A stretch of DNA of 64,000 nt from Alloboseaceae bacterium BT-24-1 (GTDB lineage Bacteria > Pseudomonadota > Alphaproteobacteria > Rhizobiales > Beijerinckiaceae), in NCBI GenBank assembly GCA_025846845.1, contig JAOYTL010000009.1:1-64000 (forward strand), written 5' to 3'. The position numbers and the translations under genes are program-made. Below the pieces are notes generated by a model that was not told the DNA's origin, searched no databases, and worked only from the letters and a program-made list of their open reading frames with translations. Every line of letters starts with the position of its first letter. Position 1 is the stretch's first letter. Positions 33,884 through 53,593 of the stretch are shown piece after piece.

Positions 33884-36800
33884 TCACCCACGCACTTGGA
33901 GCTCATGAATTTTCGCGCCCGGGCAAACCCGTCGTGCGATCTCGCAAAGGTGTGAATGATGCGTGAGGTAGATCACCTGCCCGACCTGCGCCATCCCGCC
34001 GAAGAGCCGGAACGTCTCCTCGGCCCGGAAATCATCGAAGGTCTCCATGATGTCATCAGCGACGAACGGAACGGGCTGCCGAGACGCGACGAATTCATAA
34101 TAACCAGCCACCCGCAGCGCGAGATAAAGCTGGAACCGCGTTCCCTTTGACAGCTCCGCAGCCTCTTTCGAGCCTCCGCCAGCCGAAAGCGCGATCAGGG
34201 TCTCGCCGTCCTTTTCCGGCTGGGCGGCGAGCCCGGTATAGGCGCCACGGCTGATCGTCGCAAAGGCTTGGGAGGCTCTTGCCATCATCGAGCTGCGATG
34301 CCGGTCGCGATAGGCGCGCAGCGCCTGTTCGGCTGCAGCAGCGCCGAGCTTCAGCCTGAGATAGCGGAGTGCACGATCTTCGATGTCGAGCAGCAGCGTG
34401 CGCTTCTCCTCCTCGATCCTTGCCACCGCGCCATCGCCGCCGACGGCCTCGACCCGATCGAGCGCCTTGCTGTGGACTGAAAACATGTCGCGGCTGCGCT
34501 GATCCTGATCATCGAAGCGAGCCTTTAGCTCGACAAGCTCAGCCTCCAGGGCGATGTGATCGGCACGATCGAGGACGGCTTCCGCCTCGTCCATCGTCGG
34601 CAGCCGAAGAGCAGCAAGGATGTCACGCTCGGCAACCTCGACCTGCGCCACCAACTCTGCCCTCTTTTCGATGGCAGACAGCTTGCCGGCAACCTCCGCC
34701 AGGGTCGCGACGCCGAAGAACGCGGTCATTTCCGTCTTGCGGTGATCGTAAACCGCCAAGGTCTCGGCGACCGTACGTTGCCGGGCTCGAGCAGCCTCAA
34801 GGTTTTGGGCCGCGGTCACCCGCCGTGTGCGTTCGGCGTGGGCTTGCTGAAGCTGAGCACTGACCGCCTGCGCCAGATCCAGGATATCGCCCGACGGCAC
34901 AACGATCCCCATCTCACTGGCGAGCGCTTCAGCCTCGTCGCGGAAGGCGGCCAGATCCTTCTCCATCTTGCCGATGCGATCGGCGAGACCGGCCTTTTTC
35001 TCCAGCACCGGGCCGAGTTCGGTGATGGCCGCGAGGATTTCGCGAACGGTCGCGAGCGCCGGTGTCATACCGCCCTCTCCTAGCCAACAGGCCGAGCAGG
35101 CTTTGGTCCATGAGGCGCTCCAGTCCCGGTCGGCCCCCGTGGCCTTTCCGACTTCGCGTTCGCGGCTCATCAGGTCGCGCTGCCGGTCATCCACACTGAC
35201 ACGCAAGGCCTTCAGCTCGACCTCCCGGTCGATCGCCCCCTGCCCCGCGACGAGCAGCGCCTCGAGCCGGGCATCGGCGCCCTGCGGGAGACCGGCCGCA
35301 TCGAGCGCCTTAGCTAGCCTATCTCGCACGGCCAGCGCGTCGGCATCCGCCTCGCGGAGATCGTTCTCCGCCGCACGGACGAGCGCCCTCGCCTCCAAAG
35401 CCTTGTCTCGACGGCCGAGCCAGGCCTCGAACTGAGGGAGCGACATGCTGTCCGACAGCGCCGGGCAGGTCGCAGCTACGGCTGCCGCGATCGCGCGCTG
35501 GAGGCCCTGCATAGCCGATGTCGCGGCATCTCGAAGTTCGCTGGCGCGATGGCCCTCCGCCTTCACGATGGCCAGTGCCTGGCTCGCCTGGTGGAGCTTT
35601 GCGACCTCCGCCATATGACCGAGCCGTCCGCTTGTGACGATGTCATCCCGCCGAAGCGCCGCCTCGAAGCCATCAGCGGAAGCCGTGTCGAGCTTGCCTC
35701 GATGATCCGCCCAGGCCTGCTCCCGGATTGCGCGGATGCTCGCGGCTTCCTGATCAGAGACGAGACCTGAGATCCCACTGAGCGCGTCCAGCTCGGCCGT
35801 CAGCCGGATCTGCTCCGTCGTCAGGCGCTCGACCTCGCCGGCATGCTGATCGGTCCGCTTCTGAGTCTCGGCGATCGCCAGCGTCCAGCGCTGAATCTCC
35901 GCCGCATCGGGAGCAGGCAGGTCGATAAGCTCGTCGCTATCACCGTTCCAGGGCCGCAGTTCGCGCATGCGATCCGCCAACGCTACGCGGGCGGCGTCAC
36001 GGGCCCGTTCGGCCAGTCGACGGCGCGCCGCGTGGTCGTCCGCCCGCGCGGCCGCAACGGTCGCCGCGAGCGATGCCATGCGCGTCTCTCGTCCCTGCGC
36101 GGCTTCCGGATCGCCGCCGGCCTCGCGCAGTCTCGCCTTCGCCTCGTCCAATCGCCGGCCAGCCTCGGATAGCTCATCGGCAGCCGAATTCAGCGCGGCC
36201 TCGATGCCGGAACGCGTTTCGATCAGGGCGCGAAGCGCGCCCACGATGGAGGCTCCCAGAACGAGGCGATCAGGGTCTGTCTCTCCGATCCGCTCGATGC
36301 GACCCAGGATCGTGCCGATCGCGAATTCGGCCTCGCGCAATTGCAGGCGGCGCTCAGGGATATCCTTCTCGGCCGTGACATGGCGGGCACGAAGATCGGT
36401 AAGCCGCTCGACCTTGTCGGCCAGCCGCAGCGCCGTCTCATCGACCACGATCGCGTCGAGTTGTCCTGACAGCTCCGCGATCTCCTCGGTGAGGCCTTGC
36501 GCGCGAATGCCGAGCTCGATCTCGTCCTTCTGCAGCTGCGGCAGCTCGTCGGCCCAGCCGCGCGGAGCGTCAGGAAGGTCGGCCAAGGGCGCGATACGCT
36601 CACGGAGCGCGCGCAGATCCGTCAGGCGCGGCAAGGCGTTCAGATGGCGCTGGATCTCGTCCATGCGCGCCTGAATCCGGCTGCGGCTGACGATGGCCTC
36701 CTCGTACTGGATGGCAGCCCGATCGCGCGCCTCGATGAGCTGCGCATAGTCCGACGCCAGGGTGTCGACCCGCTCCCGCTCTGCTTTGAGTTCCCCGAGC

Positions 36801-37369
36801 CCGGCCTTGAGGTCCGACAGCTCGCCGCTGCGGGCGCGGTACTTATAGAAGCCCTCGGCCTCGGTCTTGAGATCGACGAGACCTTTGCTGAGATCGGCCA
36901 GACCCGCGCTCGCGGAAAACAGGAGTTGGCCGAGATCGCCCTTGCTCGACAGGATGCTTTCGCCGCCTGCCTCCAGCGTCGCATCGTCGAGCGAGAACAT
37001 GGTGCGATAGGATTCGCGATCGATGGCGCCGAGTTCTCCCAGGAGGACGCCTTCAGCAATTGGCTGGTCCCGCACATCGAGCAAGCTGTTCTGTGGCCGC
37101 TTGATCCGGACGAGTTCCTGGGGACCGCCGGCGAGCTCAAAGGTCCCGCCGACCCGCATCGTCGGATAGGGGTGGATGAAGTTGAAGCGGCTGCGCGTCT
37201 CGATCCCGAAAAGGAGATCGAGAAAACCGGCCAGTGCCGTCGATTTTCCCGCCTCGTTGGGTCCGTAGACGATATGCAAGTCGGGCTGGCCTTCCACCCG
37301 CTCGCCAAATTCGATGCGATGATCGGTGAACTTGCCGTAGCGTGTGAGATCAAGGCACTTCAGGCGCAT
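33884..37369 (-). CDS. YhaN-type AAA ATPase (SbcC/Rad50-like)
   Basis: A 1161-residue ATPase with the two-ended SMC/Rad50 design. Walker A is GPNEAGKST (36-44), and a long alanine/glutamate-rich coiled-coil body follows (~190-1000). The C-terminal head has Walker B VPFVADDIMETFDD and the H-loop LTHHSHLCEIA. This is the architecture of YhaN, the SbcC-like partner of YhaO. The ATG overlaps the stop of the YhaO gene by one base (TGATG), so the two subunits are coupled. Likely role: DNA-end processing or defence. A partial duplicate of its 3' end lies at 26632-27035. Confidence 0.88.
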   Translation of the reverse strand: MRLKCLDLTRYGKFTDHRIEFGERVEGQPDLHIVYGPNEAGKSTALAGFLDLLFGIETRSRFNFIHPYPTMRVGGTFELAGGPQELVRIKRPQNSLLDVRDQPIAEGVLLGELGAIDRESYRTMFSLDDATLEAGGESILSSKGDLGQLLFSASAGLADLSKGLVDLKTEAEGFYKYRARSGELSDLKAGLGELKAERERVDTLASDYAQLIEARDRAAIQYEEAIVSRSRIQARMDEIQRHLNALPRLTDLRALRERIAPLADLPDAPRGWADELPQLQKDEIELGIRAQGLTEEIAELSGQLDAIVVDETALRLADKVERLTDLRARHVTAEKDIPERRLQLREAEFAIGTILGRIERIGETDPDRLVLGASIVGALRALIETRSGIEAALNSAADELSEAGRRLDEAKARLREAGGDPEAAQGRETRMASLAATVAAARADDHAARRRLAERARDAARVALADRMRELRPWNGDSDELIDLPAPDAAEIQRWTLAIAETQKRTDQHAGEVERLTTEQIRLTAELDALSGISGLVSDQEAASIRAIREQAWADHRGKLDTASADGFEAALRRDDIVTSGRLGHMAEVAKLHQASQALAIVKAEGHRASELRDAATSAMQGLQRAIAAAVAATCPALSDSMSLPQFEAWLGRRDKALEARALVRAAENDLREADADALAVRDRLAKALDAAGLPQGADARLEALLVAGQGAIDREVELKALRVSVDDRQRDLMSREREVGKATGADRDWSASWTKACSACWLGEGGMTPALATVREILAAITELGPVLEKKAGLADRIGKMEKDLAAFRDEAEALASEMGIVVPSGDILDLAQAVSAQLQQAHAERTRRVTAAQNLEAARARQRTVAETLAVYDHRKTEMTAFFGVATLAEVAGKLSAIEKRAELVAQVEVAERDILAALRLPTMDEAEAVLDRADHIALEAELVELKARFDDQDQRSRDMFSVHSKALDRVEAVGGDGAVARIEEEKRTLLLDIEDRALRYLRLKLGAAAAEQALRAYRDRHRSSMMARASQAFATISRGAYTGLAAQPEKDGETLIALSAGGGSKEAAELSKGTRFQLYLALRVAGYYEFVASRQPVPFVADDIMETFDDFRAEETFRLFGGMAQVGQVIYLTHHSHLCEIARRVCPGAKIHELQVRG

Positions 37370-38643
37370 CAGGAAACGCCGCCTTCCGCACCAGCATGAA
37401 GCCGGGCGAGCACGTCTTCGGACCCGTCCTTCGCTAGGGCCGCGATCGTGGCCTTGAACGCTTCCTCGTCTGAGCCGAGCAGGCTGCGGCATTCCTGCGG
37501 AAGCTGAGTCCTGAGCTCCTCGGCAATGGCCGCGACCTCGGTCTGGTAGACGTCGGAGCCGATGACCTCCTCGTCGATCAGGCGGCGCAGTTCAGTGAGC
37601 GGATCTGTCGAAGCGCTGGCCGCCACGCCGGGAGCCCGACAATCGACCTCGAGCTTCTCGACCCAGCAGCTCCCGATAACGGATGCCCGATCGTCAGCTT
37701 CCGTCTTGAGGAGATCGAGATCACGCCGGATGCGCCAGGCCAGGGGTGTTGCTCCCGTCACCCGCAAACGGGCGACAAGATGCTCCGAGGCGACATCGCT
37801 GCGCACCTGCTCCAGCGCTCGCGCCAACGCTGTGACGAGATCGCGCCAATCGTCGATCCCCGTCACATCGACGGCGACCCTCTCGAACTGCGCGATGCTG
37901 GTGACGCGCTCCTCGATCCGGATCGAGCGATCGTCGCCGATCGTGACCAGGGTCACGGATTTGGCGCCGGCCTCGTTGATGTCGCGGCCCTGCGGCATGC
38001 CGGGCATCACGATCGCGCAGCCGCCCTCGACGACCGAGCGTTTGTGGACATGGCCGAGAGCCCAGTAGTGGAAGCCGGTGCCCTGCAGATCAGCCAGGCT
38101 GCATGGCGCATAGAGATCGTGTCCTGCCGCGCCGGCCAGACTGGTATGCATCAGGCCGATATTCACGGCGCCCTCGACCGGTGGTCTGTACTTGCCGATC
38201 AGGCTTTCGGGGGCATGGGACTGCGCGAAACTGAGACCGTGAATCGCAACCGCGAACTGACCCCTGTCCCGCTCGATCGCGATCACCTCGGCGCGGCCGC
38301 CGAATAGCTTCACGGAATCCGGCAGCGTCAGCTCCTTGGTGATCCGCGACAGCGCATCATGATTGCCGCGGATGACGAAGACGCGGATGCCGGCCTCGTG
38401 CAGCCGCCGGAGCTGCTCGGCCAGGAACCGCGCCGTCTTCATCGAGGTCTGGTCGCCGTCATAGAGGTCGCCGGCCAGCAGCAGCGCATCAACCTGCTCG
38501 TCGAGGCACAGATCGACGACGCGAACGAAGGCGCGCCGGGTCGCGTTTCCGATCAGATCGGCGAGGTCCGGGTCACGCAGCGCGAGCGAGCGCAGCGGTG
38601 AATCCAGATGGATGTCGGCCGCATGAACAAAGCGATACGTCAC
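37369..38643 (-). CDS. YhaO/SbcD-type DNA exonuclease
   Basis: A 424-residue calcineurin-like metallophosphoesterase. Metal-ligand motifs in order are HAADIHLDSP, GDLYDG, RGNHDA, MHTSLAG and GHVHKR, the set used by SbcD/Mre11 nucleases. The C-terminal part (from ~300) would be the capping and partner-binding region. It is coupled to the YhaN-type ATPase downstream, and the pair should form a Mre11-Rad50-like complex. The gene lies 132 bases after the CoiA-like nuclease, so all four genes back to 44901 may be one transcript. Confidence 0.9.
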   Translation of the reverse strand: MTYRFVHAADIHLDSPLRSLALRDPDLADLIGNATRRAFVRVVDLCLDEQVDALLLAGDLYDGDQTSMKTARFLAEQLRRLHEAGIRVFVIRGNHDALSRITKELTLPDSVKLFGGRAEVIAIERDRGQFAVAIHGLSFAQSHAPESLIGKYRPPVEGAVNIGLMHTSLAGAAGHDLYAPCSLADLQGTGFHYWALGHVHKRSVVEGGCAIVMPGMPQGRDINEAGAKSVTLVTIGDDRSIRIEERVTSIAQFERVAVDVTGIDDWRDLVTALARALEQVRSDVASEHLVARLRVTGATPLAWRIRRDLDLLKTEADDRASVIGSCWVEKLEVDCRAPGVAASASTDPLTELRRLIDEEVIGSDVYQTEVAAIAEELRTQLPQECRSLLGSDEEAFKATIAALAKDGSEDVLARLHAGAEGGVS

Positions 38644-38775
38644 CGAATCTCCATCTCAAGGGCCTGCTAATCTGCTACTGCATATATTGAACAACTTGCC
38701 CAGCGCGAATGATACTGACGGCAGAATGGTCCGCGACCACCCAAGAGCCGGCCTCGAAATTGCCGGCACTGAGCA

Positions 38776-40860
38776 TCAGCGCCGCTTCTTCGGCTGCAGA
38801 ATCTCAATGCACCGGTCAGCAGTCTTGCTGTCGATTGCGAACTGCTCGGGGCGAGCTCTTAAGACCGGATGGTAATTTCGCATCCACAATTTGGTGCGTT
38901 CGTCTCCCAATAGCGCCTTCGCAATATCTTTTACCTTCTTCTGGGCCTCTTCCTTCGCCCGGGCTTGGGCACGTTCCAACTCTTGTTCTCGGATTCGCTT
39001 CTCCAGCGCACGCTCGGCGCGTACATACTCATCGTCGCTGACCGCGGCGACTTCTGACGGGATCCGCCCGTCGAGCCGGGCGTTTGGGGCAGCCAACCAT
39101 TCGTCTGCTACGGTCCCGAGGTTTTGCCGAGCCCAGGATCTCAGATTCGCAATCCGCCTGTTGGCTGCGGCCTGGAGCTCCAGTTGATGAGCTTCCTCGC
39201 GAGCTGCGAGCGCTTCGGCTTTCGCTGCCACCGATCTGGCGAGCTCAGCGTCCAGAGGAAGGCCGAGAAGGTCCAGATCCGGCTTCGGAAAAATGGCGAT
39301 CTGGTCCGACAAATTCGCCAGCTCGCTGTGCAGCGAGCGCCAGGCAGGTACATCGAAATGCAACGCCTGCCGGAGCGAATATCCACGCCCGGGCAATGGC
39401 TGCCGGGACCACGTGTCCAAATCGAACGATGCAACTTCGCCCGCAGGCAGCGCATTCAGTTTGTGCGTGATGACTGCTTTAATCTCCTCGAACCTCTTGG
39501 CCGGCCGCTGTCGAAGCTCGCGCGCGCTGGCAACAATTCTCGTAAGCGTGTCCGCAGCCCACCATGTGCCGGCGTCGCTGGATATCAGCAGGCCATCAGC
39601 CTGGAGCAGTTTAAAATAGAGCTGAATCGATCGCGCGGGGAGTTCGAAGGCCGGCACAAGCCTGCGAGCACCATCGATGGTGTCTCTTCCCGCTTCCTGA
39701 AACCACGTGTCGATCCAGCCTCTTTTCTCAAGAGCGGAATAGACATCAAACTCGAGCACTCCGTGCCGCCCGGCCTTCAGGAGTTCCTGCAACGCAGCCG
39801 CTTGCCACTCTGCAAGCGGAACTTTGAAACAGCCCGCCCCCTTCACATCGAGATTGATGTGCCCGCCGAGACCATCGCGGCGGAGCGCGCTTTCATAAGC
39901 ACCGCGGCCTCCTAGCTTGGCGGGTGGGCGATGCTGATACTTGCCCGCGAGTTCGCGAACCCTGGCAGCGAGTGCCTCAGCTTTTTCTTGTGACCGCTTT
40001 CGCGCCCGATCGCGGGCAGCGGAGCTCTTCGGATTATGAAGCCATTTGCGATCGGCCTGGAAGAGGATCTTCTCGACCAACTCCCCCAGCTTCACGTTGC
40101 GATAGGCTGACAGGTCGATTTCGATGGCCCCAATATCGAGCGTCCGGATGAACTCGATCTTCTCGGGACCACAGGCATGTGTGACCATGAACTCGATCAT
40201 CAGCTGACGATCGCCTTTGACCAGAATGACGTCAGGTACGATCTTGCCGGTGCGCTGCTCCAACGTTGCGGCATCGAATTTGAACGGGCGCTCCCTTACG
40301 ATGACCTCTGCCTCACCGGCTTCCGTAACGGTCAAAGCTGGAAGACCAATCTGGAGACGCTGGTCCAGCACCTCTTTGGCGAACTTGTGGAGAGCGCTCT
40401 CTCCTGCTGAGGCGCAGGTAACCCCGACTATTCCATGGTGAGCGAAATGATGGGCGAGTTCCTTGCCCTTCCGCGCAACCATACGCCGATCACAGCCGGG
40501 GCATTTGCAAGTGCAAGCCAACCCCGAAGGCACGTCATGAATCGAGACCAGCTTGCCGTGCTCGTTCTCCGCGACAACCGAGGTGCCATATCGACCGCAG
40601 TCGAAAAGTTCGCCCAAGCTCAGCTGATCGAGCCCCGCAGCACCTTCAGCAGAATCCGCCATGGATAGAGACGACCATAGGAGAACTCGGGACACAAGGA
40701 TCGCAAATCTATCTGCAAAGCACTCCTGACATTCCCCGGGTTTGGCGATCTCTAGATGCGGGCTCCGCTGCTCGCAATTCAGGCACGTATGCAGTAGCTC
40801 CGATGTTAGCCGCCACACATGAGAGGGATTGTCGCCTCGTGAAAACGGCCGGAGTCGCAA
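38776..40860 (-). CDS. CoiA-like nuclease-domain protein
   Basis: A 694-residue protein. An N-terminal CxxC pair (CLNC at 26-29, CQEC at 44-47) looks like a zinc ribbon. Next is the CoiA-like region: CKCPGCDRR (118-126), HHFAHH (137-142), SALHKF, and the PD-(D/E)xK-like core PDVILVK (209-215) ... IEFMVTH (222-228) ... EIDLS (247-251). The remaining 440 residues are helical and unassigned, ending in a charged coiled coil. The TTG start at 40860 is chosen because it includes the ribbon and lies 27 bases after the ATPase stop; ATG 40662 (628 residues) is the alternative. Probably a DNA nuclease acting with the SMC-like ATPase. Confidence 0.75.
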   Translation of the reverse strand: MRLRPFSRGDNPSHVWRLTSELLHTCLNCEQRSPHLEIAKPGECQECFADRFAILVSRVLLWSSLSMADSAEGAAGLDQLSLGELFDCGRYGTSVVAENEHGKLVSIHDVPSGLACTCKCPGCDRRMVARKGKELAHHFAHHGIVGVTCASAGESALHKFAKEVLDQRLQIGLPALTVTEAGEAEVIVRERPFKFDAATLEQRTGKIVPDVILVKGDRQLMIEFMVTHACGPEKIEFIRTLDIGAIEIDLSAYRNVKLGELVEKILFQADRKWLHNPKSSAARDRARKRSQEKAEALAARVRELAGKYQHRPPAKLGGRGAYESALRRDGLGGHINLDVKGAGCFKVPLAEWQAAALQELLKAGRHGVLEFDVYSALEKRGWIDTWFQEAGRDTIDGARRLVPAFELPARSIQLYFKLLQADGLLISSDAGTWWAADTLTRIVASARELRQRPAKRFEEIKAVITHKLNALPAGEVASFDLDTWSRQPLPGRGYSLRQALHFDVPAWRSLHSELANLSDQIAIFPKPDLDLLGLPLDAELARSVAAKAEALAAREEAHQLELQAAANRRIANLRSWARQNLGTVADEWLAAPNARLDGRIPSEVAAVSDDEYVRAERALEKRIREQELERAQARAKEEAQKKVKDIAKALLGDERTKLWMRNYHPVLRARPEQFAIDSKTADRCIEILQPKKRR

Positions 40861-40887
40861 TCCAAGGAAATGGCAACCCCAACGGCC

Positions 40888-43800
40888 CTAGAACAAAGTG
40901 CCGAGTACCTTCCAGGTCTGCTCGACGACTGGAATACCCGGTGTCGGTGCGATGCCGGTCACCGGAAACTGCACAAACTCCCCCTCGCCTGCCTGACCGA
41001 CATTTTCGAGATAGTAGACGGTTTGGGACCCCGGCATCGCTTTGCCGAGACGCTTGAGGTAGGCGAAGTGCTCGCTCGAAAATTCGTCTGCCCTGGTTAC
41101 GACTGCCAGAATACGACCATCGAGCAGCGAGATGTCCGGAGCGATACCTAGAAGAACATGGCCTGCGTCGAGCGCCACGGGGAAGGCGCTGTCGCCAATG
41201 ACACCCGCTGCGGCAACAACCTGCTCGAGGACCGGCGACCGATCCGCTTCGATGGCCTCGTCCTGCGACTTCGCAGGCGTGGTTTCATCGAAAAGCACGC
41301 CGATCACCTTGCTCAAATGCGCGCTGCTGCGCTGAACGAAATGCGTTTGCGGCGCGCGGGGATTTGTCGACGGCATCGTCTCCAGCGCGATCCGAGAGCG
41401 GTCCGACTTATCCAGCCCGATCCGCCGCGCATAAGTCTTGCCTGGTGTGCGAACGATCGCGAGGTCGCCGTTTCTGACCTCCGCCGCCGCCGACACGATG
41501 AGAGTCTGCCCTGGAAAAGCGACTATCCCTAGCGTCGGCGCTCTCAATGTGAACAGCGAGACGTCGCCGAGCGACGACAGGTCCAATCGATCTGTCGCCT
41601 GGTCGATCGTAGTCAGCGGAGCTCCGGCTGCACGAGCAGCCAGTCTGCCAACCACCGAAATCGGTGTGGTACGAAGTGTCGCGAGCTTCAAATCCGAAGT
41701 GGACTTTTGGGCCTCCGCCACGGCTTCCTCTGGCGGCAACCTGCCCATGAATCTCGCATAGGCGAGCCAACAAGCATCGATCGCCGAGAACACGTCCTCG
41801 TAGCTCCGTCTGACGGTCTCAGCCTCGACCGGCGTGATCTGATCAGCGCGCCCGTGGTGCGCTTTGTTGATGACATCCCGAAAGGGGGCACCGGACTTCA
41901 GCGCCGGCAGCTCCAGGAGCCGCCGAAACGGTTCTTCGTTGAATGGTTGCTCTCCACGGTTGCGGGCGTTGGCAATCTTGCCGAGCAAATCGCCCATCGT
42001 CGGATCATGTAGGACCGCAGGATCAGACGCGAGCAGATCCCAAAGCTTGATTTCAATGCGTACTCGAACCGGATAGACGAACGCGCGGGCCATGCCGGCG
42101 TCGTTCGGGTCGGTCTTCTGCCAATGCTCGCAACGGACGCGAACCTCATCGACTACCGGGGCGAGACTCACCGTGCATTTCGAAGTCGAGATCGCGGAAA
42201 ACTCCCACGTCTCGGTTCGTACTGCCCCCAGTGCGCGTTTGTCGGCGGCGACAAAGGCCTCAATTGTGGGAATGAACGCGAAATCATTGCTGACGATGAT
42301 CGGATTGATGCCCTCGGCGATCAACCAAGGCACCGTAGCGGCGAGGTTGGCGATATTTCCCGGATCGAGCAGGTCCTGGGGGTCATCCATGAGGACGGCC
42401 GAAATGCCGCCCGATCGTGACCAGACCTGTTGCCAAAGCGCCAGCACGAAGGCGGAGAGAAAGGCGCGCAACGCCGACGCATTCATGACGTGATGGGCCT
42501 CAACCAGATGCTGCCCGTGGGCCGCGAGGAACGTGAAGCCGTCGCTCTTCGCAGGGTCTAATCCTGCATATTCCGGAGCCTGAACGAAATGGGCCCTGTA
42601 CATGCGATGTGACCAGGACGTCGCCTTCTCCTGCAAATCTGTGATCAGTCCGGCAACCTGATTATGCACGAGGTCTGGGAAGCTCTTGAACGGCTCGACG
42701 GCATTGGCCGCCCGGACCAGCTTTTCAATTCGCGCCCGAACCTTGGCCCACCGCTCGCAGGTTTCTTTGATTTGGCCCAACTGGCTACGAATGCCGGCGA
42801 AAACGCTGGCCGCATCAAGGTGGCCCTTCAGGACGTTCATTTGCCCATGGATGGTCCGTTCGTTGGCCGAGAGCGCCGTTTCGTCAGCATCGGTGCGCAT
42901 CACTTTCAGGACAGCGGCTCGCGCGAAGTCGGCGTTGATGGTGCGATAGCGGGAAAGCGCAATCGCTCGTCGCACGGTGCGCATCGCCGCACGCAGCTTC
43001 TCGTTGTCGGGAATCTGAGCTGGTAGATTGACACCGGGCAGCGGCTCGCGCTCAGGAGCATCCTTCCAAGCCGCCGCGCAAAGCGCGCCGATACCCTTGG
43101 CCATCGGCTTGAGGGGATCCGGAAACTCGGTGAGCTGGAAGATTTCCTTCGACAGAGCCGTACCGTAAACCGAGCCCAGATCGTCCGGAACAGCGTCGTC
43201 GACAAACCTACGCAGCTTCTCGGGAAGACGATCGCGTAGGCCTTTCTTCGTGTCGCGCTCCCATTCGGCCGCCGTCTTCAACATCGCAGCGTCAGCGTCG
43301 CGGGCATCATCAAGCGCCTGCGCCACCGATTTATTCAGCAAGGCGTCAGTGGGGATCGCGCCGGGCTGGAGGAGATCACGCTCGCAAACCGGACAAGCGG
43401 TGAAGGCGTGGTCCGGATGCACGGTGTCATGCCATTTCGCCACAAGACCGTAGAGGCGAAGTCGATCTGCCCGCTCGGCATGGGAAAGCTGCGCGACGAG
43501 CGTCGCCGCCTCCCGCTCGACGTCCAGCAACACCGTCGCAGCCGCCGTTAACTCCGCGTCGCTCAGTTCGCCAAGGCTTTGCGCAAGCTGCATCGACGGA
43601 AGCCCCTTGAGCGCGACACCGCTGAAGCAATGCTCGGCCGCCCTGATAGCCTCACCAAAGCGTTTGATCTGGCTGTCGTTCGTAAGAGGCGGGAGAGAAC
43701 CGAGAATCAGTAGCGCGTCCGCTGCAGCTTTTTCCTCGGCCGACTTCAGGAGTTGCTCGGCCTGATCGAGACCGCCCTTCCAGTCATCCGGGGCCGTCTC

Positions 43801-44901
43801 GCTAGGCGTGGCAACGCAGCTCAGATTTGGCAGACCCTCGCTGTCCTTGAGGAGGTCCTGGAGCGTCGACAACTGTTTGGCTGCAATGCCCTCGCATTGC
43901 TCCTTTTCCTCTGTGGCCTGCTTCGGGTATTTTTCGGTCAAGCGCTCGTGTAGGCGGCCACTGCGGGTTCCGAAGTGAGCCAGTGGCCGTAGGCCGGTCA
44001 AAGTCGACACCGCCTGCGATAGGGTCGTCTTGTCATCGAAGCGGGTCGCCGCGGCGATCCCAGGCATCAAGGTGCCGACCTGCAACGCCAGTTCCGACAA
44101 TCGGAGTGTTTCGAGCCCGATAGCCGTCGTCTTGAAGGACTTTTTCCCGTCTCGCTCGAGGCGGCGCTCGACCTCGACCTCGCTTCCATCGACCAATGAC
44201 CTGAACTTCAGGCGCACCCAGGTATCGATCTGCGGCTGCCCGTCGACGGCCAGCAACTCGTCTTCCGTTGGTATCGGTACGATCGGCGGCAGCTCGAACG
44301 TGGTGTTCGGCTCGCCGCTGTCCTGGTTGGCGATCTGGACCGTGATGGGCGTGTGCAGGGCGGAAGGAAGGCCTTGGGAACGATGCCCATAACCCGTAAG
44401 GCACCAGCAAATGGCGCTGATCAGCGACGTCTTGCCTGCGCCATTGAAACCGCGAAAGAGCGTGACATGCCGGGAAAGATCGAGTGCGAAGGGACTAGGG
44501 GCCGCCCCCTTCTCATCGCAATGGCGGTGCAATCCACGGAAACGGTGCGCTGTAATCCCAATTAATTGCCACCGTTGTTGTTGGCTTGCTGGCCGCGTTG
44601 CCGGAGCGGTTACCTTGGCGGGTTTGTCCAATGCCTCTAATAGTCGATCAATCTCGCCATCGAGGATGTTCGTGTCCTTGTCGGGGTTCCAATAGGCCTG
44701 CCGGCTCTGATTGTAGAACGCCAGCACTGTGCGACTGTCTTGAAGCGGCAGTGAGAAATCGGCTCCGCCCGAAACCTGCAAGGCGTTTCCAGCCGCCAAA
44801 TGCAGGACGACTTCATCCAACGTTAGGTCTGCAATATTGATCGCCACATGACCCCCAGTAGCCGTGCGAGCATGGCCCTCGGCCTGCCGATTCTGCTGCA
44901 A
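40888..44901 (-). CDS. giant SMC-like ATPase with S24-like C-terminal domains
   Basis: A 1337-residue protein. Walker A is GFNGAGKTS (152-159 region) followed by ICWCLTGYGHRS. A coiled-coil body has a Rad50-like zinc-hook motif CPVC (503-506). The distal head has SALRAFLSAFVLALWQQV as signature-like helix and Walker B AVLMDDPQDLLDPG (835-848), with Asp where most have Glu. After the head, residues ~1115-1205 (EVRNGDLAIVRTPGKTYARR) and ~1235-1337 (LLDGRILAVV, FAYLKRLGKAMPG) resemble two S24/LexA-type beta domains lacking the GxSM serine. GTG 44847 is a possible alternative start. It is the first gene of the four-gene run down to 33884. Confidence 0.75.
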   Translation of the reverse strand: MQQNRQAEGHARTATGGHVAINIADLTLDEVVLHLAAGNALQVSGGADFSLPLQDSRTVLAFYNQSRQAYWNPDKDTNILDGEIDRLLEALDKPAKVTAPATRPASQQQRWQLIGITAHRFRGLHRHCDEKGAAPSPFALDLSRHVTLFRGFNGAGKTSLISAICWCLTGYGHRSQGLPSALHTPITVQIANQDSGEPNTTFELPPIVPIPTEDELLAVDGQPQIDTWVRLKFRSLVDGSEVEVERRLERDGKKSFKTTAIGLETLRLSELALQVGTLMPGIAAATRFDDKTTLSQAVSTLTGLRPLAHFGTRSGRLHERLTEKYPKQATEEKEQCEGIAAKQLSTLQDLLKDSEGLPNLSCVATPSETAPDDWKGGLDQAEQLLKSAEEKAAADALLILGSLPPLTNDSQIKRFGEAIRAAEHCFSGVALKGLPSMQLAQSLGELSDAELTAAATVLLDVEREAATLVAQLSHAERADRLRLYGLVAKWHDTVHPDHAFTACPVCERDLLQPGAIPTDALLNKSVAQALDDARDADAAMLKTAAEWERDTKKGLRDRLPEKLRRFVDDAVPDDLGSVYGTALSKEIFQLTEFPDPLKPMAKGIGALCAAAWKDAPEREPLPGVNLPAQIPDNEKLRAAMRTVRRAIALSRYRTINADFARAAVLKVMRTDADETALSANERTIHGQMNVLKGHLDAASVFAGIRSQLGQIKETCERWAKVRARIEKLVRAANAVEPFKSFPDLVHNQVAGLITDLQEKATSWSHRMYRAHFVQAPEYAGLDPAKSDGFTFLAAHGQHLVEAHHVMNASALRAFLSAFVLALWQQVWSRSGGISAVLMDDPQDLLDPGNIANLAATVPWLIAEGINPIIVSNDFAFIPTIEAFVAADKRALGAVRTETWEFSAISTSKCTVSLAPVVDEVRVRCEHWQKTDPNDAGMARAFVYPVRVRIEIKLWDLLASDPAVLHDPTMGDLLGKIANARNRGEQPFNEEPFRRLLELPALKSGAPFRDVINKAHHGRADQITPVEAETVRRSYEDVFSAIDACWLAYARFMGRLPPEEAVAEAQKSTSDLKLATLRTTPISVVGRLAARAAGAPLTTIDQATDRLDLSSLGDVSLFTLRAPTLGIVAFPGQTLIVSAAAEVRNGDLAIVRTPGKTYARRIGLDKSDRSRIALETMPSTNPRAPQTHFVQRSSAHLSKVIGVLFDETTPAKSQDEAIEADRSPVLEQVVAAAGVIGDSAFPVALDAGHVLLGIAPDISLLDGRILAVVTRADEFSSEHFAYLKRLGKAMPGSQTVYYLENVGQAGEGEFVQFPVTGIAPTPGIPVVEQTWKVLGTLF

Positions 44902-45022
44902 TTCTGATTAAACGAACAAAGACGCAAGATTCCCTCAAATCTCGACGCTCTCAACAATTAATCGCTGAGGGGCTCCCGGCGCTGTCCGAAGAATGCAGCA
45001 TTGTTAGGGCACCCTCGACAGC

Positions 45023-45049
45023 GTCCGAAATTTGCATCATATTTCGGAC
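45023..45049. promoter_or_regulatory. inverted-repeat operator of the AbiE pair
   Basis: GTCCGAAAT (45023-45031), a 9-base gap, then ATTTCGGAC (45041-45049), ending exactly at the ATG at 45050. A third copy of GTCCGAA lies at 44984-44990. AbiEi antitoxins are known to repress their own promoter by binding inverted repeats. The related repeats at 25192-25266 have no gene beside them. Confidence 0.7.
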
Positions 45050-45718
45050 ATGCTCGATCAACCGGCCACGGACCTTCGGCGGCGCCTTATGGCGCGTATT
45101 GACGCGACGCCGGCAGAGGTGTGGACGCCCAGCGATTTCGCCGACCTCGCCAGCCGCGCTGCCATCGACAAGACATTGCAACGCCTCGTCGCGGCAGGCG
45201 AACTCCGTCGCATCGATCGTGGGCTCTACGACAAGCCGCGAAAAAGCAACCTCACCGGCAAGACGGCGGTCCCCGACTATCGCGCTGTGATCAGAGCCGT
45301 AACGCGGCGGGACCAAGCCCGCGTCGTGGTCGACGGCATGACCGCCGCAAACGACCTCGGCCTCACCACGGCGGTCCCAGCGCGCATTGAAGTGCTGATC
45401 GATGCCCGCTTGAAACCGATCACGCTCGGGAAGCAGGTCATCCATTTCAAATCGGCCGCACCCAGCCGTCTCTACTGGGCGGGACGCCCAGGCATGCGCG
45501 TCGTCCAAGCACTCTACTGGATGCAGGATATGATGAGTACGGAAGACGATCTACGGAGCGTCGAGAACCAACTTCGCAGGCTGCTCACCGCTCCAAAGCA
45601 TGGAAAGGAGATACGCGAGGATCTTCGCGCGGGGCTCTCTGCCATGCCAATCTGGATGCAGGATTTTCTCCGGCCCCTTCTCGATCCTATGAATGGCGAG
45701 CTGGAGAAGCACTCGTGA
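45050..45718 (+). CDS. AbiEi/DUF6088-type antitoxin
   Basis: A 222-residue type IV antitoxin. The N-terminal winged helix (VWTPSDFADLASRAAIDKTL, RRIDRGLYDKP) binds the operator. The C-terminal part (VVVDGMTAANDLGL, YWAGRPGMRVVQALYWM) is the AbiEi antitoxin domain. The ATG at 45050 directly abuts the inverted repeat, so no Shine-Dalgarno is possible and the mRNA may be leaderless; an internal ATG at MARIDATPAEV is the alternative. It overlaps the toxin gene by four bases. A broken paralogue lies at 16919. Confidence 0.85.
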   Translation: MLDQPATDLRRRLMARIDATPAEVWTPSDFADLASRAAIDKTLQRLVAAGELRRIDRGLYDKPRKSNLTGKTAVPDYRAVIRAVTRRDQARVVVDGMTAANDLGLTTAVPARIEVLIDARLKPITLGKQVIHFKSAAPSRLYWAGRPGMRVVQALYWMQDMMSTEDDLRSVENQLRRLLTAPKHGKEIREDLRAGLSAMPIWMQDFLRPLLDPMNGELEKHS

Positions 45719-46755
45719 GTGCTGTTGCCTATGCCGAAGTCATCTCAGCCGCACCCGCCGAGAAGCTCGACCTCTTTTTGACCACAGCAAACCGGCTCGG
45801 CACGCCGATCGGCAATGTCGAAAAGGATTTTTGGGTCTGCTGGACTCTCGACGCCCTCTATCGTGAACGACCAGCGGGAGGGCCGCGCCTATTGTTCAAG
45901 GGCGGAACATCGCTATCGAAAGCCTATGGGCTCATTGAGCGGTTTTCGGAAGACATCGACGTCACGGTGTTTCGTGACGATCTCGACGAGCCCGCTTCCG
46001 TGGAAGAGCTCGAGGCACTGTCGAACAACAGGCGCCGCGCTCGTCTGGACGCGATTCGCGACGCTTGTCGCAGCTATATCACCGGCGCGCTGCACGAATT
46101 CCTGGCCGAACACCTTGCTGCAGCGACGGACGGAAAAGGCCGAGTCGAGATCGATGAGGCAGACCCCGACCGACAGACGCTTCTGGTCTGGTATCCAGAG
46201 GTTGAGCCGCGCGATGAGTCATACGTGCGACCGGCAGTGCGGATCGAGTCCGGCGCCAAGTCGGCACTCGACCCCAACCAGCCCAGGAACATCCGGCCTT
46301 ACATTGCCGACGATGCGGGCGGACTCGATCTCACGGTTGCGAATGTCACAACGATCAATGGGGAACGCACGTTTTGGGACAAGGTGGTGATCGCACACGG
46401 CCTGCGGCGCTGGTTCGAGCGCCGCGGCGAGCTGCGCCAGGCAGGCCAGCGGGTTTCGCGCCACTTCTATGATCTCCACTGCCTCTTCGCATCGGACATC
46501 GGCCGGACAGCATTAGCCGATGCTGCGCTGGGAGCAGACTGTGTTCGCCATGCGCTCATGTTCTTCAATCGGACCGACTACGACCTGGCCACGGCCGCAG
46601 CCGGATCATTTGCACTCGTGCCAACAGCAGCAATGATCGACGCGCTTGCGCGCGACTATGCAAACATGACGCCCATGATTTTCGGCGAAGCCCCTCGCTT
46701 CGAAGAAATCCTAGCCTCGATGGAAATGATTGAACGAGCGGCGAACGGAGCATAG
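45715..46755 (+). CDS. AbiEii-type nucleotidyltransferase toxin
   Basis: A 346-residue toxin with the nucleotidyltransferase motif LLFKGGTSLSKAYGL (Gly63-Lys69) and the metal-binding ED-ID pair Asp80/Asp82 in FSEDIDVTVF. AbiEii-family enzymes arrest growth by transferring nucleotides, in known cases to tRNA, and can abort phage infection. The GTG start at 45715 overlaps the antitoxin stop (GTGA). Further conserved parts include KVVIAHGLRRWFERR and SRHFYDLHCLF. All key residues are intact, so the pair should be functional. Confidence 0.88.
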   Translation: MSAVAYAEVISAAPAEKLDLFLTTANRLGTPIGNVEKDFWVCWTLDALYRERPAGGPRLLFKGGTSLSKAYGLIERFSEDIDVTVFRDDLDEPASVEELEALSNNRRRARLDAIRDACRSYITGALHEFLAEHLAAATDGKGRVEIDEADPDRQTLLVWYPEVEPRDESYVRPAVRIESGAKSALDPNQPRNIRPYIADDAGGLDLTVANVTTINGERTFWDKVVIAHGLRRWFERRGELRQAGQRVSRHFYDLHCLFASDIGRTALADAALGADCVRHALMFFNRTDYDLATAAAGSFALVPTAAMIDALARDYANMTPMIFGEAPRFEEILASMEMIERAANGA

Positions 46756-47659: not shown

Positions 47660-48733
47660 CTAAGCCGCCTCGTCCGCGTGAGCCTCGCCACAGGCGGTGC
47701 AACGCAAGTGCGACCATGGCCAATCAACCGTTCGCACGCCGCTGTGATGCTCACCATATTCAGACAGCCACGCTTCGCTTAGGCGACCGCCGAGATCGGC
47801 GATACGCCGAGCCGATGTGACGAGTACCCGGCTGAACGACTGCGACGGCGGCGTGAGGAGGCAGTCGAGCGCCAGTTCGCTGAGCATTGCGGTCACGTAG
47901 TTGAGCTCGACCGGCCCGTAAGGTTGGTAGTGCGCGCCACACGCGGGCTCTTCCCAATTGGCGTCGCCGCCATCCGGCCAGTCCACGACCCTGAACGCCG
48001 GCGTGCCGGTCCGACCGATGTGACATTGCAGACAACCGCCCTCACCTGCGATTGCCACGCCGTGCCCGGCGCAGGCATGAACTTCGGTCCAGCTGTACAG
48101 GATCGGCTGAACCCGACCCTGGGCAAGATGCCAGCGGTTGAGCGCATTCTCGGCGGCCCAGCTGCCCGTCGCAGCGACGATCAGGTCGGCCGCTTCCAGG
48201 AGGTTAGGATCGTTTGCGAGCACATAATGCAGATCGCAAACCCTGTGCTCGACCTGAAGATGGGGAAAATCAGCCTGCAATCGCTCAGCCAACGCCTCGG
48301 ACTTGTGCCGGCCGACCGCTGACGCGCCCAACGGGTGGCGGCCGACGTTCGGCCAAGAGAGCTTTTCGGGGTCGATCAGGACAAGGCGACCGACGCCAGC
48401 CTGCGCGAGGGCGCAGGCGATCGGCGCACCGACCGATCCGCAGCCGATCAACACGACCGTCGCGCCCAACAGCCTCTCTGTGCGGGAATCGCTGCCGCGG
48501 CCATGAACCCACATTGCATCCGCCCGTTGAAGTGAGCTGCGAATGACAGGGCCGGCGCCGAAAAAACGGGCCAGCAAGACCGGCTTAGGCGTGTGGCCAG
48601 GCCGAAAGCCCTTCGACAGGGGTTCCCGTGTCGACCGTGGAGTCGACTTCAGGTATTTCGGATTGGGCACCTTGACGCCGACCAAGCCGACGCCGCCCCG
48701 ACCCGTCGCACCCAAGATAACGGCGAGAGGCAT
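47660..48733 (-). CDS. ThiF/E1-like adenylating enzyme, 5'-truncated
   Basis: A 357-residue product with an E1-like Rossmann fold: VVLIGCGSVGAPIACALAQA (94-112), LVLIDPEKLSWPNVGRH, AATGSWAAENALNRWHLA. A CxxC occurs at 234-237 and the very C-terminus (CTAC 346-349), and ACGAHYQPYGPVE holds a candidate catalytic cysteine. Coding-like sequence continues in frame upstream of ATG 48733 (VSLSNLPDWLLPDGASA) to a stop near 48820 without any start, so the N-terminal part, perhaps an E2-like domain as in E2-E1 fusions, has been lost. No ubiquitin-like or JAB protease gene is adjacent. Confidence 0.7.
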   Translation of the reverse strand: MPLAVILGATGRGGVGLVGVKVPNPKYLKSTPRSTREPLSKGFRPGHTPKPVLLARFFGAGPVIRSSLQRADAMWVHGRGSDSRTERLLGATVVLIGCGSVGAPIACALAQAGVGRLVLIDPEKLSWPNVGRHPLGASAVGRHKSEALAERLQADFPHLQVEHRVCDLHYVLANDPNLLEAADLIVAATGSWAAENALNRWHLAQGRVQPILYSWTEVHACAGHGVAIAGEGGCLQCHIGRTGTPAFRVVDWPDGGDANWEEPACGAHYQPYGPVELNYVTAMLSELALDCLLTPPSQSFSRVLVTSARRIADLGGRLSEAWLSEYGEHHSGVRTVDWPWSHLRCTACGEAHADEAA

Positions 48734-49263: not shown

Positions 49264-49974
49264 TCAGGACTCCAAACCGTCCGCGGCCTCCGGTTCGTCG
49301 ATGGTATCGCCGCTGGGCCCCTCTTCGTCCGATCCTTCATCACCAATCCCGATCGGGATCTCATCGGCCAGAAGGCTGTCCTTGGTGAGCAGCCCGGCAT
49401 CCTCGAGCTTTTCGATGTCGGGCAGGTCACGCAGGCTGGCGAGGCCGAACACACACAGGAATTTCTCGGTCGTCACATAGGTGTAAGGCGCCCCGGGCTC
49501 CGGGCTGCGCGGCCCAGCCGCGATGACGCCGGCGCGCTTCAGCGCCGCGACGGTGTCGCGGCTCATCTCCTTGCCAAAGACCTTTCCGAGCTCACCGCGG
49601 GTGATCGGCTGGAGATAGGCAATGCCGGATAAAAACAGCATCTCGGTCGCGGACAGGCCGACCATCGGCTGCGGCACGCCCGACACCGCCCGGATCGCCG
49701 GCGCAAAGGCCGATCGCGTGCGGTGGTGCCAGCCGCCGGCGACGGCGACGAGATCGTAGGGCCGGCCGCGCAATTCCTCGCGGATGTCGGCGATGATCAG
49801 GTCGAGCGCGCAGTCGCGGCCAACGACCTGGGCCAGCGCCTCGCGCGGCACCGGCTCGGGCGCGGCAAAGATCACCGCCTCAACCCGGCCCATCCATTCG
49901 CGCCAGCGTAAGTCGGACGGCAGATCGGCCAGTTCGGTATCGATTGCGATCTCAGCTTTTGGACGACGCACCAT
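49264..49974 (-). CDS. scpB: ScpB-like SMC-complex subunit
   Basis: A 236-residue protein with the tandem winged helices of ScpB: REWMGRVEAVIFAAPEPVPR, VGLSATEMLFLSGIAYLQPI, YVTTEKFLCVFGLASLRDLP. In chromosomes ScpB bridges SMC and kleisin for chromosome condensation. Here no scpA is adjacent; instead it is paired, four bases apart, with a DUF1403 gene, a combination known from rhizobial replicons. A role in plasmid condensation or segregation is inferred. The C-terminal tail is acidic. Confidence 0.88.
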   Translation of the reverse strand: MVRRPKAEIAIDTELADLPSDLRWREWMGRVEAVIFAAPEPVPREALAQVVGRDCALDLIIADIREELRGRPYDLVAVAGGWHHRTRSAFAPAIRAVSGVPQPMVGLSATEMLFLSGIAYLQPITRGELGKVFGKEMSRDTVAALKRAGVIAAGPRSPEPGAPYTYVTTEKFLCVFGLASLRDLPDIEKLEDAGLLTKDSLLADEIPIGIGDEGSDEEGPSGDTIDEPEAADGLES

Positions 49975-49977
49975 GGC

Positions 49978-50934
49978 TCAGAGCCCATAGATGCGGAAGG
50001 TCGGCCGGCCCGACAATTCGCGCAGGGCACCGAGCGCCACCAGGCGGTCGAACAGCCGGCGCAAGCCGCGATCCGAAATGCCGCCGATGTTTGCCGAGCT
50101 CGCCAACGCATCCTCGCTGAGCAAAGCCACGATTACCGCTCCCGACCCTTTTGCCCGCAGTTTTGGCGCCGCGGCCTGGAGGACCTCGGCGCGACGCGCG
50201 AGCTCGCCGGCCAGGTCGATCGCGCCGGCCGCCGCTTGCGCATAGGCCAGCGCGAGCGCCTGCTGCCAGCCCTCGCCGCCTGGGCGCGGCCGCTTGCCGG
50301 CCGCGCCGCGCCGGGCGTTTGGATCCAGGATCGCCGAGGTCACCAGCGGCACCGGCACAGGCCATTTGAGTTTTTGGGCAAGCACGGCGTCGGCCAGCCA
50401 GAGCGCCAGCACTTCGGCATCCGGGCGAACTCGCACGACACGCTCGGTCAGCTCGGCCAACGCCACGATCGCCGTCCGATCCGATCGGGTCGCCTCGATA
50501 GCCCGATCGGCCAACGCTGCGAATTCGGCCGCGTTCAAAACCAGACCAAAACCGGCCGCGGCCCGCGCGATCGCATCTGGCGAAAAATCCGGAGAGCGCG
50601 CGACGAGCTGGCGCCAGGCGAGCAGGACGCGCCCGGCGGGACCAGGATCGTCGCCGGGCCGGCGCAGCAGCTGGACATCGCGCAATTGGTTCTGATCCTC
50701 CCGGCGGCCGATCAGGCGCAGGCTGGCGGCCGCGGCCTGTAGCGCCAGGCGCTGGCGCCAGACGCCGCTCCAGGGCGGGTTTTCGCGGGCGATCGCGTCG
50801 AGCGCGGCCAAGCTGGCGCCGGCCAGAAATGCCGCATCAACCACCTGAGATGACTGCGCTTTTGGTCGCGCCCAGGCAGGCACGGGACGGATCGTCGAGG
50901 GTGGCGAAGCCAGGGGCGCGGCACGGCGAAGCAT
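49978..50934 (-). CDS. DUF1403 family protein
   Basis: A 318-residue, alanine-rich helical protein. It matches the DUF1403 family (DAAFLAGASLAALDAIARE, WRQRLALQAAAASLRLIGRR, ISDRGLRRLFDRLVALGALR). No biochemical function is known. The last ~90 residues look like a winged helix (LLSEDALASSANIGGISDRG). It is followed by scpB three bases later, so the two are co-expressed and DUF1403 might take the place of a kleisin-like partner; that is inference. Confidence 0.8.
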   Translation of the reverse strand: MLRRAAPLASPPSTIRPVPAWARPKAQSSQVVDAAFLAGASLAALDAIARENPPWSGVWRQRLALQAAAASLRLIGRREDQNQLRDVQLLRRPGDDPGPAGRVLLAWRQLVARSPDFSPDAIARAAAGFGLVLNAAEFAALADRAIEATRSDRTAIVALAELTERVVRVRPDAEVLALWLADAVLAQKLKWPVPVPLVTSAILDPNARRGAAGKRPRPGGEGWQQALALAYAQAAAGAIDLAGELARRAEVLQAAAPKLRAKGSGAVIVALLSEDALASSANIGGISDRGLRRLFDRLVALGALRELSGRPTFRIYGL

Positions 50935-51144
50935 GTGCTAAGTCTAGCGTGAGGCGGCGCTTCAGGCCACAGAATTTCATACAAAGCGCCGAGCTTGTCG
51001 TGCGATAATAACGACTGATAATCTTGTATTATCGTTCGTTTGGTTCTTTATAGAGAGCCCTGGTGCGAAACACGCTTCTGGGCGATCAGAGGCGCCTGCG
51101 CGCCGGGACAACGCGGCGCATTCGCCGTGCGCGGGTGTTGTGCT

Positions 51145-51194
51145 TTGACATCGGGCGAACATGCGCTTAAATAGCTAGCTAGTCTAGCTAGGAG
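51145..51194 (+). promoter_or_regulatory. promoter and operator of the Phd-VapC pair
   Basis: A consensus -35 TTGACA (51145-51150), a 17-base spacer and a weaker -10 TAAATA (51168-51173) are followed by the repeated palindrome TAGCTAGCTAGTCTAGCTA (51172-51190) and AGGAG before the ATG at 51202. The palindromes overlap the expected start of transcription, as in Phd-type autoregulation. Confidence 0.65.
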
Positions 51195-51201
51195 TATAGG
51201 G

Positions 51202-51456
51202 ATGGACTGGCCGCTTCAGGACGCCAAGAACCACTTTTCGAAGGTGGTGCAGCGCGCGCGCAGCGAGGGACCGCAGGTCGTCACCTTGCGCGGAGAACGC
51301 GCGGCCGTCGTGTTGTCGGCACGCGACTATGACGCGCTCCGTGCCGGCCGGCCGACCCTGGTCGATGATCTGCTCGCCGGCCCCACCTGGGACGATGACC
51401 TGGTCGAGGCGGTCTCGGCACGCGCCAAGACCCCAAGCCGGGATATCGCGTTCTAA
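51202..51456 (+). CDS. Phd/YefM-type antitoxin
   Basis: An 84-residue antitoxin. The N-terminal Phd/YefM DNA-binding fold (WPLQDAKNHFSKVVQRA, PQVVTLRGERAAVVLSARDY) is followed by a toxin-neutralising tail. AGGAG lies nine bases before the ATG. Its stop codon overlaps the toxin start by one base, so the two are coupled. It should both repress the promoter and neutralise the PIN toxin. Confidence 0.9.
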   Translation: MDWPLQDAKNHFSKVVQRARSEGPQVVTLRGERAAVVLSARDYDALRAGRPTLVDDLLAGPTWDDDLVEAVSARAKTPSRDIAF

Positions 51457-51860
51457 TGTACCTGGTCGACACCAACATCGTGTCCGAGGCGCGGCGGGGC
51501 ACCGCGGAGGCGGTCTCCTGGCTGCGCTCGGTCGATCCGTTCAGCGTGCATCTCAGCGTCATCACGCTTGGTGAGGTCATGCGCGGGATCATGCTGAAGC
51601 AGAAGTCCGATCCGAAAGCGGCCGGCCATCTCGGCGAATGGCTGCGCAAGCTACGCCATGATCATGGCGATCGGATCCTGCCGATCACTGACCAGATCGC
51701 CGTCGAATGGGGGCGTGTTGCCGCGCTACGGCCGCGCGGCGATGCCGATGGCCTGATCGCGGCAACGGCCATCGTTCACGACCTGATTGTGGTAACCCGC
51801 AATGCCGGCGATTTCGACGATACCGGCGCGTCGGTCATCAACCCGTGGGAGCTCGCCTGA
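51456..51860 (+). CDS. VapC-type PIN-domain toxin
   Basis: A 134-residue PIN-domain ribonuclease. Acidic metal ligands are visible: Asp5 in YLVDTNIVSE, Glu40 in ITLGEVMRG, Asp in DADGLIAATA and Asp in NAGDFDDTG. Length is typical. With the Phd-type antitoxin it forms a plasmid-stabilising toxin-antitoxin pair close to the integrase and repABC genes. Confidence 0.92.
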   Translation: MYLVDTNIVSEARRGTAEAVSWLRSVDPFSVHLSVITLGEVMRGIMLKQKSDPKAAGHLGEWLRKLRHDHGDRILPITDQIAVEWGRVAALRPRGDADGLIAATAIVHDLIVVTRNAGDFDDTGASVINPWELA

Positions 51861-51887
51861 CCGAGGCACCAAGATGATGGGAGTGCC

Positions 51888-52970: not shown

Positions 52971-53084
52971 GCGTCCCCTCCCCTGCCGACGTGACGCGTC
53001 AAGGATCCCTGTGGAGGGTCAGGAAGGCCGCAGCTCTTCCCTACCTTCTCGTGCCATTGGTTTCCAATCACGCCATCCCTCCCG

Positions 53085-53591: not shown

Positions 53592-53593
53592 GG

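Follow-up and report, generated by a model that had tools for sequence, protein, structure and literature searches.

The first 64,000 nucleotides of contig JAOYTL010000009.1 of Alloboseaceae bacterium BT-24-1 (hereafter the window, meaning this whole stretch) raise the question of what is encoded by two long, neighbouring open reading frames (ORFs) on the minus strand, at 40888-44901 (1337 residues) and 38776-40860 (694 residues). A preliminary description of this DNA read them as a candidate defence system of two genes, a giant SMC/Rad50-like ATPase and a CoiA-like nuclease. Both ORFs are present as drawn. Our analysis suggests that the ATPase may by itself be a one-gene defence system, presumably directed against phages. 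In our preferred reading, to which we give about an even chance, a single RloC-like protein senses damaged or invading DNA, and a LexA-type protease module within the same protein gates its nuclease.

The relatives of the ATPase were collected by scanning an 11-row alignment over genome contigs, with the DDPQ motif required and the best 80 of 96 kept; the invariance of DDPQ is therefore partly by construction. The 79-row alignment of the ATPase comprises frames of at least 1200 residues, 14 of the 92 loci having been excluded for shorter, broken or contig-cut frames. The copy of the window's own genome is in it two times, and two further pairs of rows are identical or nearly so, which leaves about 76 independent rows. 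ATPase residues are counted from the GTG at 44847 (1319 residues).

The head and the hook of the protein were recognised correctly in the preliminary description. The Pfam model AAA_23 matches above its cut-off (E 2.7e-10), the ABC ATPase region covers residues about 90-900 with an H-loop near 854, and both cysteines of the CPVC zinc hook are invariant in the alignment. For a structure model of residues 88-1052 (mean predicted local distance difference test score, pLDDT, 86.9), Foldseek ranked Rad50 first in the PDB (E 1.8e-11), followed by a Lamassu LmuACB chain (E 8.3e-8), and ranks 1-14 were filled by Rad50, Lamassu and Smc5/6 chains. The predicted fold of head and arms is thus close to that of Rad50 and Lamassu. 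In PADLOC, the LmuB models matched the ATPase over short stretches only (best 139-170, E 1.5e-11), and LmuA was not listed among the ten window proteins scanned. Sequence searches of the PDB with the two single proteins gave chance-level matches only.

What the preliminary description overlooked is the C-terminal third, which is the part of the ATPase that tells most. The tail of the protein, which consists of two repeats, is well supported as LexA/S24-like. At E <= 1, Peptidase_S24 of Pfam was found in 51 of the 61 members (best 4.3e-8), and a profile search of the PDB returned 11 distinct LexA sequences (best E 0.0017), with the best stretch on repeat 1. An AlphaFold2 model (mean pLDDT 86.4) retrieved LexA chains first with Foldseek (probability 1.00, E 5.3e-4), with CI and UmuD' lower in the list, and LexA/CI-type repressors also headed the search of a viral structure library. 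The superpositions were loose overall, as is expected of a repeat pair; the tightest one listed was 3.0 Å over 98 columns, with a mycobacterial LexA domain. In a profile alignment with 17 LexA-type proteins, repeat 1 was matched from the cleavage-loop segment on (E 4.5e-5, probability 69), and repeats 1 and 2 also aligned with one another (E 8.3e-5). The dyad of S1220 and K1265 in repeat 2 is kept in rows down to about 22% identity, and in repeat 1 the lysine position is taken by arginine in 78 of 79 rows. A profile of the helical domain plus the tail, searched in 398 genomes of the phylum, gave two full matches, one in the own genome and one in G187, and both are members of this ATPase family. 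The same search gave a fragment in G069 and six frames of 208-285 residues, probably repressors, that matched repeat 1.

Between the head and the tail lies an all-helical domain, modelled as seven helices over residues about 899-1048, which is probably an RNase of the RloC/PrrC kind. It is reported that RloC is defined by a zinc-hook ABC ATPase together with the motif R-x3-E-x36-52-H, often with a serine before the histidine, and that in RloC of G. kaustophilus the change of any triad residue abolished activity (PMC2610378). The RloC and PrrC nucleases have been classed as HEPN domains (PMC3710099), and linear DNA activates the RloC nuclease and keeps it active (PMC3874168). For comparison, 16 PF13166 proteins were taken from genomes of the class and phylum. 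With hhalign, the ATPase aligned with them over residues 770-930, from Walker B to R-x3-E (probability 97.6, E 3.3e-12), and R928-x3-E932 fell on the R-x3-E of RloC. Two SbcC-like profiles used as a control (5 and 3 sequences) gave their best alignment near Walker A instead. The spacing from the H-loop to the arginine is 62-74 residues in the 79 ATPase rows and 66-87 in the 7 of 16 RloC proteins caught by the pattern. Of 14 RloC proteins whose C-terminus could be read, 9 carry an asparagine four residues before the triad-like histidine, just as N994 (78 of 79 rows) stands to H998. Taken together, these data suggest that the ATPase probably works like RloC; we do not claim identity as RloC.

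Several observations weigh against this interpretation. The helical domain alone, compared with the C-terminal domain of RloC (L152 and L157, which have no C-terminus, were excluded), gave no significant alignment (E 0.046, probability 1.2); the Pfam HEPN models did not match it, and no HEPN structure was among the 50 matches listed in either Foldseek run on the PDB. The RloC profile match is limited to residues 770-930, the Walker A part having a probability of 0.4, and the spacing from E932 to H997 is 64-71 residues, beyond the 36-52 of RloC. The ATPase had no match to PF13166 in Pfam at E <= 1, and PDC-S06 was not among the 25 of 44 PADLOC families listed for it; two of the RloC proteins matched PDC-S06 at E 3.5e-284 and 4.1e-142, and one RloC protein had no PDB match at E <= 1. 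As for the tail, the alignment of repeat 2 with LexA, in which S1220 falls on the serine and K1265 on the lysine, is weak by itself (E 0.001, probability 21). LexA cleaves itself at an Ala-Gly bond, and this bond is not conserved: A1071 is found in 79 of 79 rows, and the next residue is phenylalanine in 47, arginine in 23, histidine in 4 and others in the rest. Finally, the defence-gene neighbours described below were scanned without a control set.

Part of this evidence bears on a different explanation, which places the working end of this stand-alone sensor in the LexA-like tail, as a protease acting on another protein or as a dock for the RecA filament, and leaves the helical domain a structural role only. 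In its favour, the invariant S24 dyad has stronger support than the nuclease, and the helical domain alone lacks a significant match. However, the four residues R928, E932, H997 and H998 equal the dyad in invariance and stand at RloC-like positions past the H-loop, and we consider this explanation unlikely.

The preliminary description did not recognise the two genes as any described system, and for the ATPase this holds: no model scanned (PADLOC 2023, NCBIfam, Pfam, PHROGs) names the whole protein, which received only generic ABC and S24 matches. The pair itself does not appear to be a system, as discussed below. In the open-access literature we found no paper on an ABC-HEPN-LexA/S24 protein, and term look-ups in PMC12839542, PMC10586767, PMC10853773 and PMC3710099 gave neither LexA nor S24. 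A protein joining a sensor motor, a probable RNase and a LexA-like tail is apparently undescribed. We place the ATPase, as a variant, with the HEPN nucleases fused to ABC ATPases. RloC (PF13166; PADLOC PDC-S06), a zinc-hook ABC ATPase with a C-terminal anticodon nuclease, shares with it the ABC head split by zinc-hook arms, the R-x3-E at a similar distance past the H-loop, and the histidine late in the helical domain, which the asparagine precedes by four residues. It differs from RloC in its length (1319 residues against 725-797 in the full RloC frames compared), the longer spacing from E to H, the extra N-terminal piece, the tandem LexA-like tail and the lack of the PF13166 match. With LexA, UmuD and CI (Peptidase_S24) the tail shares the fold and the Ser-Lys dyad in repeat 2, and the cleavage-loop segment of LexA can be aligned with the start of repeat 1. 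It differs from LexA in having two repeats, one of them without the dyad, in the fusion to an ATPase and in the cleavage bond, and no helix-turn-helix family was found among the Pfam matches, whether the tail members or the complete protein were scanned. The predicted fold of head and arms is shared with Lamassu LmuB and Rad50/SbcC; what sets the ATPase apart is the probable nuclease in its own chain, with no LmuA or LmuC seen beside it in the window and no regular Mre11/SbcD partner.

The mechanism that we propose would begin with the Rad50/Lamassu-like ABC heads and zinc-hook arms, which, judging from their fold and from RloC, would bind broken or invading DNA. An ATP-driven rearrangement would then reach the helical domain with its R-x3-E and His-His motifs, and this domain, if it is an RNase of the PrrC/RloC HEPN kind as motif and register suggest, would halt translation by cutting RNA, perhaps tRNA. 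The tail, with its two LexA-like repeats, of which one has an intact Ser-Lys dyad and the other none, would restrain the nuclease and set it free by cleavage. LexA docks on RecA filaments. By analogy with LexA, engagement of the head or contact with a RecA filament may lead the tail to cut its own chain or a partner, and such a switch would be lasting. Proteolytic release of a nuclease has been established for other systems with other enzymes: where Hachiman, AVAST, Lamassu and DRT employ nuclease-protease pairs, the nuclease is likewise inactive until a protease acts (PMC12799240). Those pairs combine a trypsin-like protease with a separate metallo-beta-lactamase-fold DNase, and in the ATPase one chain would unite a module of the LexA type with a probable RNase. 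More tentatively, and with doubt prevailing, the protein may be a translation-stopping RNase of the RloC lineage that has adopted the chemistry by which the SOS switch works. Its fused, pseudo-dimeric LexA-type module would cleave its own chain upon DNA damage or phage DNA, and a sensor-nuclease that was reversible would become a one-way suicide device triggered by a protease. If this were true, a LexA-type self-cleaving domain would serve as an immune fuse, outside transcription and mutagenesis. RloC-type nucleases need to be silent until DNA breaks, and in a family that carries a LexA-type protease module on the nuclease chain, self-cleavage in the style of the SOS response would be coupled to a shutdown at the level of RNA. 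The switching of such nucleases is also cleanly testable, because S1220 and K1265 can be changed without touching the ATPase or the nuclease.

The second ORF was described as a CoiA-like nuclease with a zinc ribbon. The Pfam model CoiA_N remained below the cut-off (E 0.0042 in the 694-residue ORF), but residues about 100-277 match plasmid proteins annotated as competence protein CoiA family. A weak match to Xre_MbcA_ParS_C (E 7.4e-5, 22 residues) was also below the Pfam cut-off, and PADLOC (2023) gave no match at E <= 0.1. Both ORF starts are probably over-extended, and the residue numbers given before, 1337 and 694, describe the ORFs and not the probable proteins of 1319 and 628 residues. For the CoiA-like gene, the best plasmid homologues align from residue 77 (Bosea) or 95 (Methylorubrum) of 694, and with a start at the ATG at 40662 the gap to the ATPase gene is 225 bp; the 27 bases noted previously hold for the ORFs as drawn. 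The cysteine cluster CTCKCPGC lies inside the likely gene, and the CLNC and CQEC pairs precede its likely start.

The functional pairing of the two genes was not supported. The closest relative locus outside the own genome is L017, whose ATPase is 92% identical; there AbiEii-AbiEi lie divergent from the ATPase, which is followed by YhaO and YhaN, and there is no CoiA-like gene. By blastn, positions 40872-44932 of the window correspond to 8915-12976 of L017, and positions 35556-38663 to 12974-16078. The 2,208 bases between these blocks of the window, with the CoiA-like gene, are therefore extra in the window; since the gene is absent elsewhere, a gain in the window would explain this better than a loss in L017. 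Co-occurrence elsewhere had been named beforehand as the point on which the pair could be refuted, and as far as tested it was absent: among 12 ATPase genomes a single one had a CoiA relative (the 12 probably include a duplicate, as G187 and the genome of L018 have identical ATPases), and the ATPase was found in none of the three other CoiA-carrying genomes from a 297-genome search of the order, in which its profile gave no match in one and only 50-60-residue stretches at Walker B in two. The neighbour cluster of the window's CoiA-like protein contains only the window locus and L020, the single positive among the 12 genomes. Between L020 and the window the ATPases are 84% identical and the CoiA-like proteins 29%, which indicates that the two genes were not inherited together; the CoiA-like gene of L020 is a separate acquisition at almost the same place.

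The two-gene defence system of the preliminary description has in its favour that the genes adjoin on the same strand in the window, that a CoiA-like gene lies 499 bp downstream of the ATPase in L020, and that CoiA-domain genes lie about 5 kb from the ATPase in L011 and L027. Against it stand the otherwise matching L017 locus without the gene, the near absence of co-occurrence and the separate inheritance of the partners in L020, and we regard such a system as highly improbable. Adjacency in a defence island can reflect insertion and not a system, and the distances in L011 and L027 also fit island passengers. From these comparisons, the CoiA-like gene looks like an insertion or island passenger outside the ATPase system. 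It may be a defence gene of its own, as a CoiA-domain protein belongs to the systems reported from a pangenome screen of E. coli (PMC9519451); that likeness concerns the CoiA domain of this neighbouring gene only, and the window's protein differs in having no PADLOC match. In L020, the CoiA-like gene occupies 13459-15366.

The ATPase is sporadic in distribution, and its 92 loci are mostly stand-alone. The kept relatives come mostly from Alphaproteobacteria, and also from Beta- and Gammaproteobacteria, a Granulicella, a Nitrospira metagenome-assembled genome and others. Within the order, the ATPase matched in 6 of 199 genomes including its own; one of the six is a fragment of 87 residues, and another is an ABC match of borderline quality. 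Matches were also obtained in 26 records of the plasmid collection, and in 13 of these the match spans 80% or more of the query; at least five loci on viral contigs matched over about 45-76 residues around Walker A. The ratio of nonsynonymous to synonymous substitution rates (dN/dS) between the ATPases of the window and L017 is 0.08, which argues that the ORF is not a chance one, and it was 0.065-0.123 in the 8 pairs, out of 10, for which dS could be estimated; the ATPase is under purifying selection. Broken or split copies are found in L028, L029, L039, L043, L048, L052, L063 and L089. Nearly identical ATPases occur in Paracoccus and Kaistia, which belong to different orders (L054 and L070; 8974-12888), with upstream genes in the same clusters, and this suggests a recent transfer between orders or a misassigned contig. 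The split copy of L039, on a contig titled Mycobacterium sp. KBS0706, is 37-39% identical to that of the window, possibly through a misnamed record or transfer.

The neighbours of the ATPase vary between loci. The near neighbours analysed were 127 proteins out of 140 candidates. Those removed were eight long proteins, four fragments of the ATPase and one further candidate from L096, and one L017 frame was replaced by YhaO. They matched 107 PADLOC families at E <= 1e-15, generic ABC models included, and no enrichment is claimed; each of the 25 of 107 families listed was found in 2-3 proteins, and PDC-M01A, AriA, SngC and BrxHI were among them. A YhaO/SbcD-like gene is present in 12 of the 92 ATPase loci, more commonly than the CoiA-like gene, and it lies directly downstream of the ATPase in L008, L017, L025, L027 and L028. 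This arrangement and the Rad50-like predicted fold would agree with a protein of DNA repair or plasmid maintenance that works with a YhaO/SbcD-like phosphoesterase and is not immune. We find this quite unlikely: in 80 of the 92 loci that search found no such gene (flank lengths differ), the YhaO-like relatives differ in orientation and family, and the presence of the ATPase in the order is sporadic. The RloC-like sensor remains our preferred explanation of the ATPase.

Table 1. Features of the ATPase gene and its surroundings; positions are those of the window, residues those of the 1319-residue ATPase.
Feature	Position	Strand	Remarks
ATPase gene, likely extent	40888..44847	-	GTG start at 44847, 1319 aa; ORF to 44901
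N-terminal conserved piece, unknown kind	44578..44847	-	residues 1-90
Walker A	44428..44451	-	residues 133-140; K139 78/79
CPVC zinc hook	43384..43395	-	residues 485-488; C485, C488 79/79
Signature-like NASALR	42466..42483	-	residues 789-794
Walker B DDPQ	42376..42387	-	residues 821-824; 79/79
Helical domain, probable RloC/PrrC-like (HEPN) nuclease	41698..42135	-	residues 905-1050
R928-x3-E932	42052..42066	-	both 79/79
H997-H998	41854..41859	-	both 79/79
LexA/S24-like repeat 1, no dyad	41293..41685	-	residues 1055-1185
LexA/S24-like repeat 2	40891..41292	-	residues 1186-1319
S1220, on LexA catalytic Ser	41188..41190	-	79/79
K1265, on LexA catalytic Lys	41053..41055	-	78/79, one gap
CoiA-like gene, likely extent	38776..40662	-	ATG at 40662, 628 aa; judged passenger
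Stretch without counterpart in L017, probable insertion	38664..40871	.	2,208 bp

The setting of the two ORFs is as it had been described, and the ATPase is part of an island that also has AbiE and Xre-RES. They are flanked by AbiE (45032-46755) on one side and YhaO-YhaN (33884-38643) on the other; beyond the CoiA-like gene, to the left, follow YhaO, YhaN, RES and Xre, and to the right of the ATPase lie AbiEi-AbiEii, a ThiF-domain gene (47660-48733, between AbiEii and ScpB), ScpB, DUF1403, an integrase and repC-repB-repA, the last at 56118-59760 on the same replicon. The block from ScpB to repA covers 49264-59760. On plasmids L008, L178, L179 and L181 the ATPase, whole or as a fragment, lies beside the integrase, DUF1403 and ScpB, and repABC genes are visible in L008 and L181. 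The integrase-DUF1403-ScpB block is seen again on these rhizobial plasmids beside changing defence and toxin-antitoxin genes, and it is likely a plasmid hotspot. On plasmid pPVG21 of Pseudomonas veronii (L009, 5859-7786), the ATPase is immediately preceded, on its own strand, by a SLATT gene and a reverse transcriptase gene.

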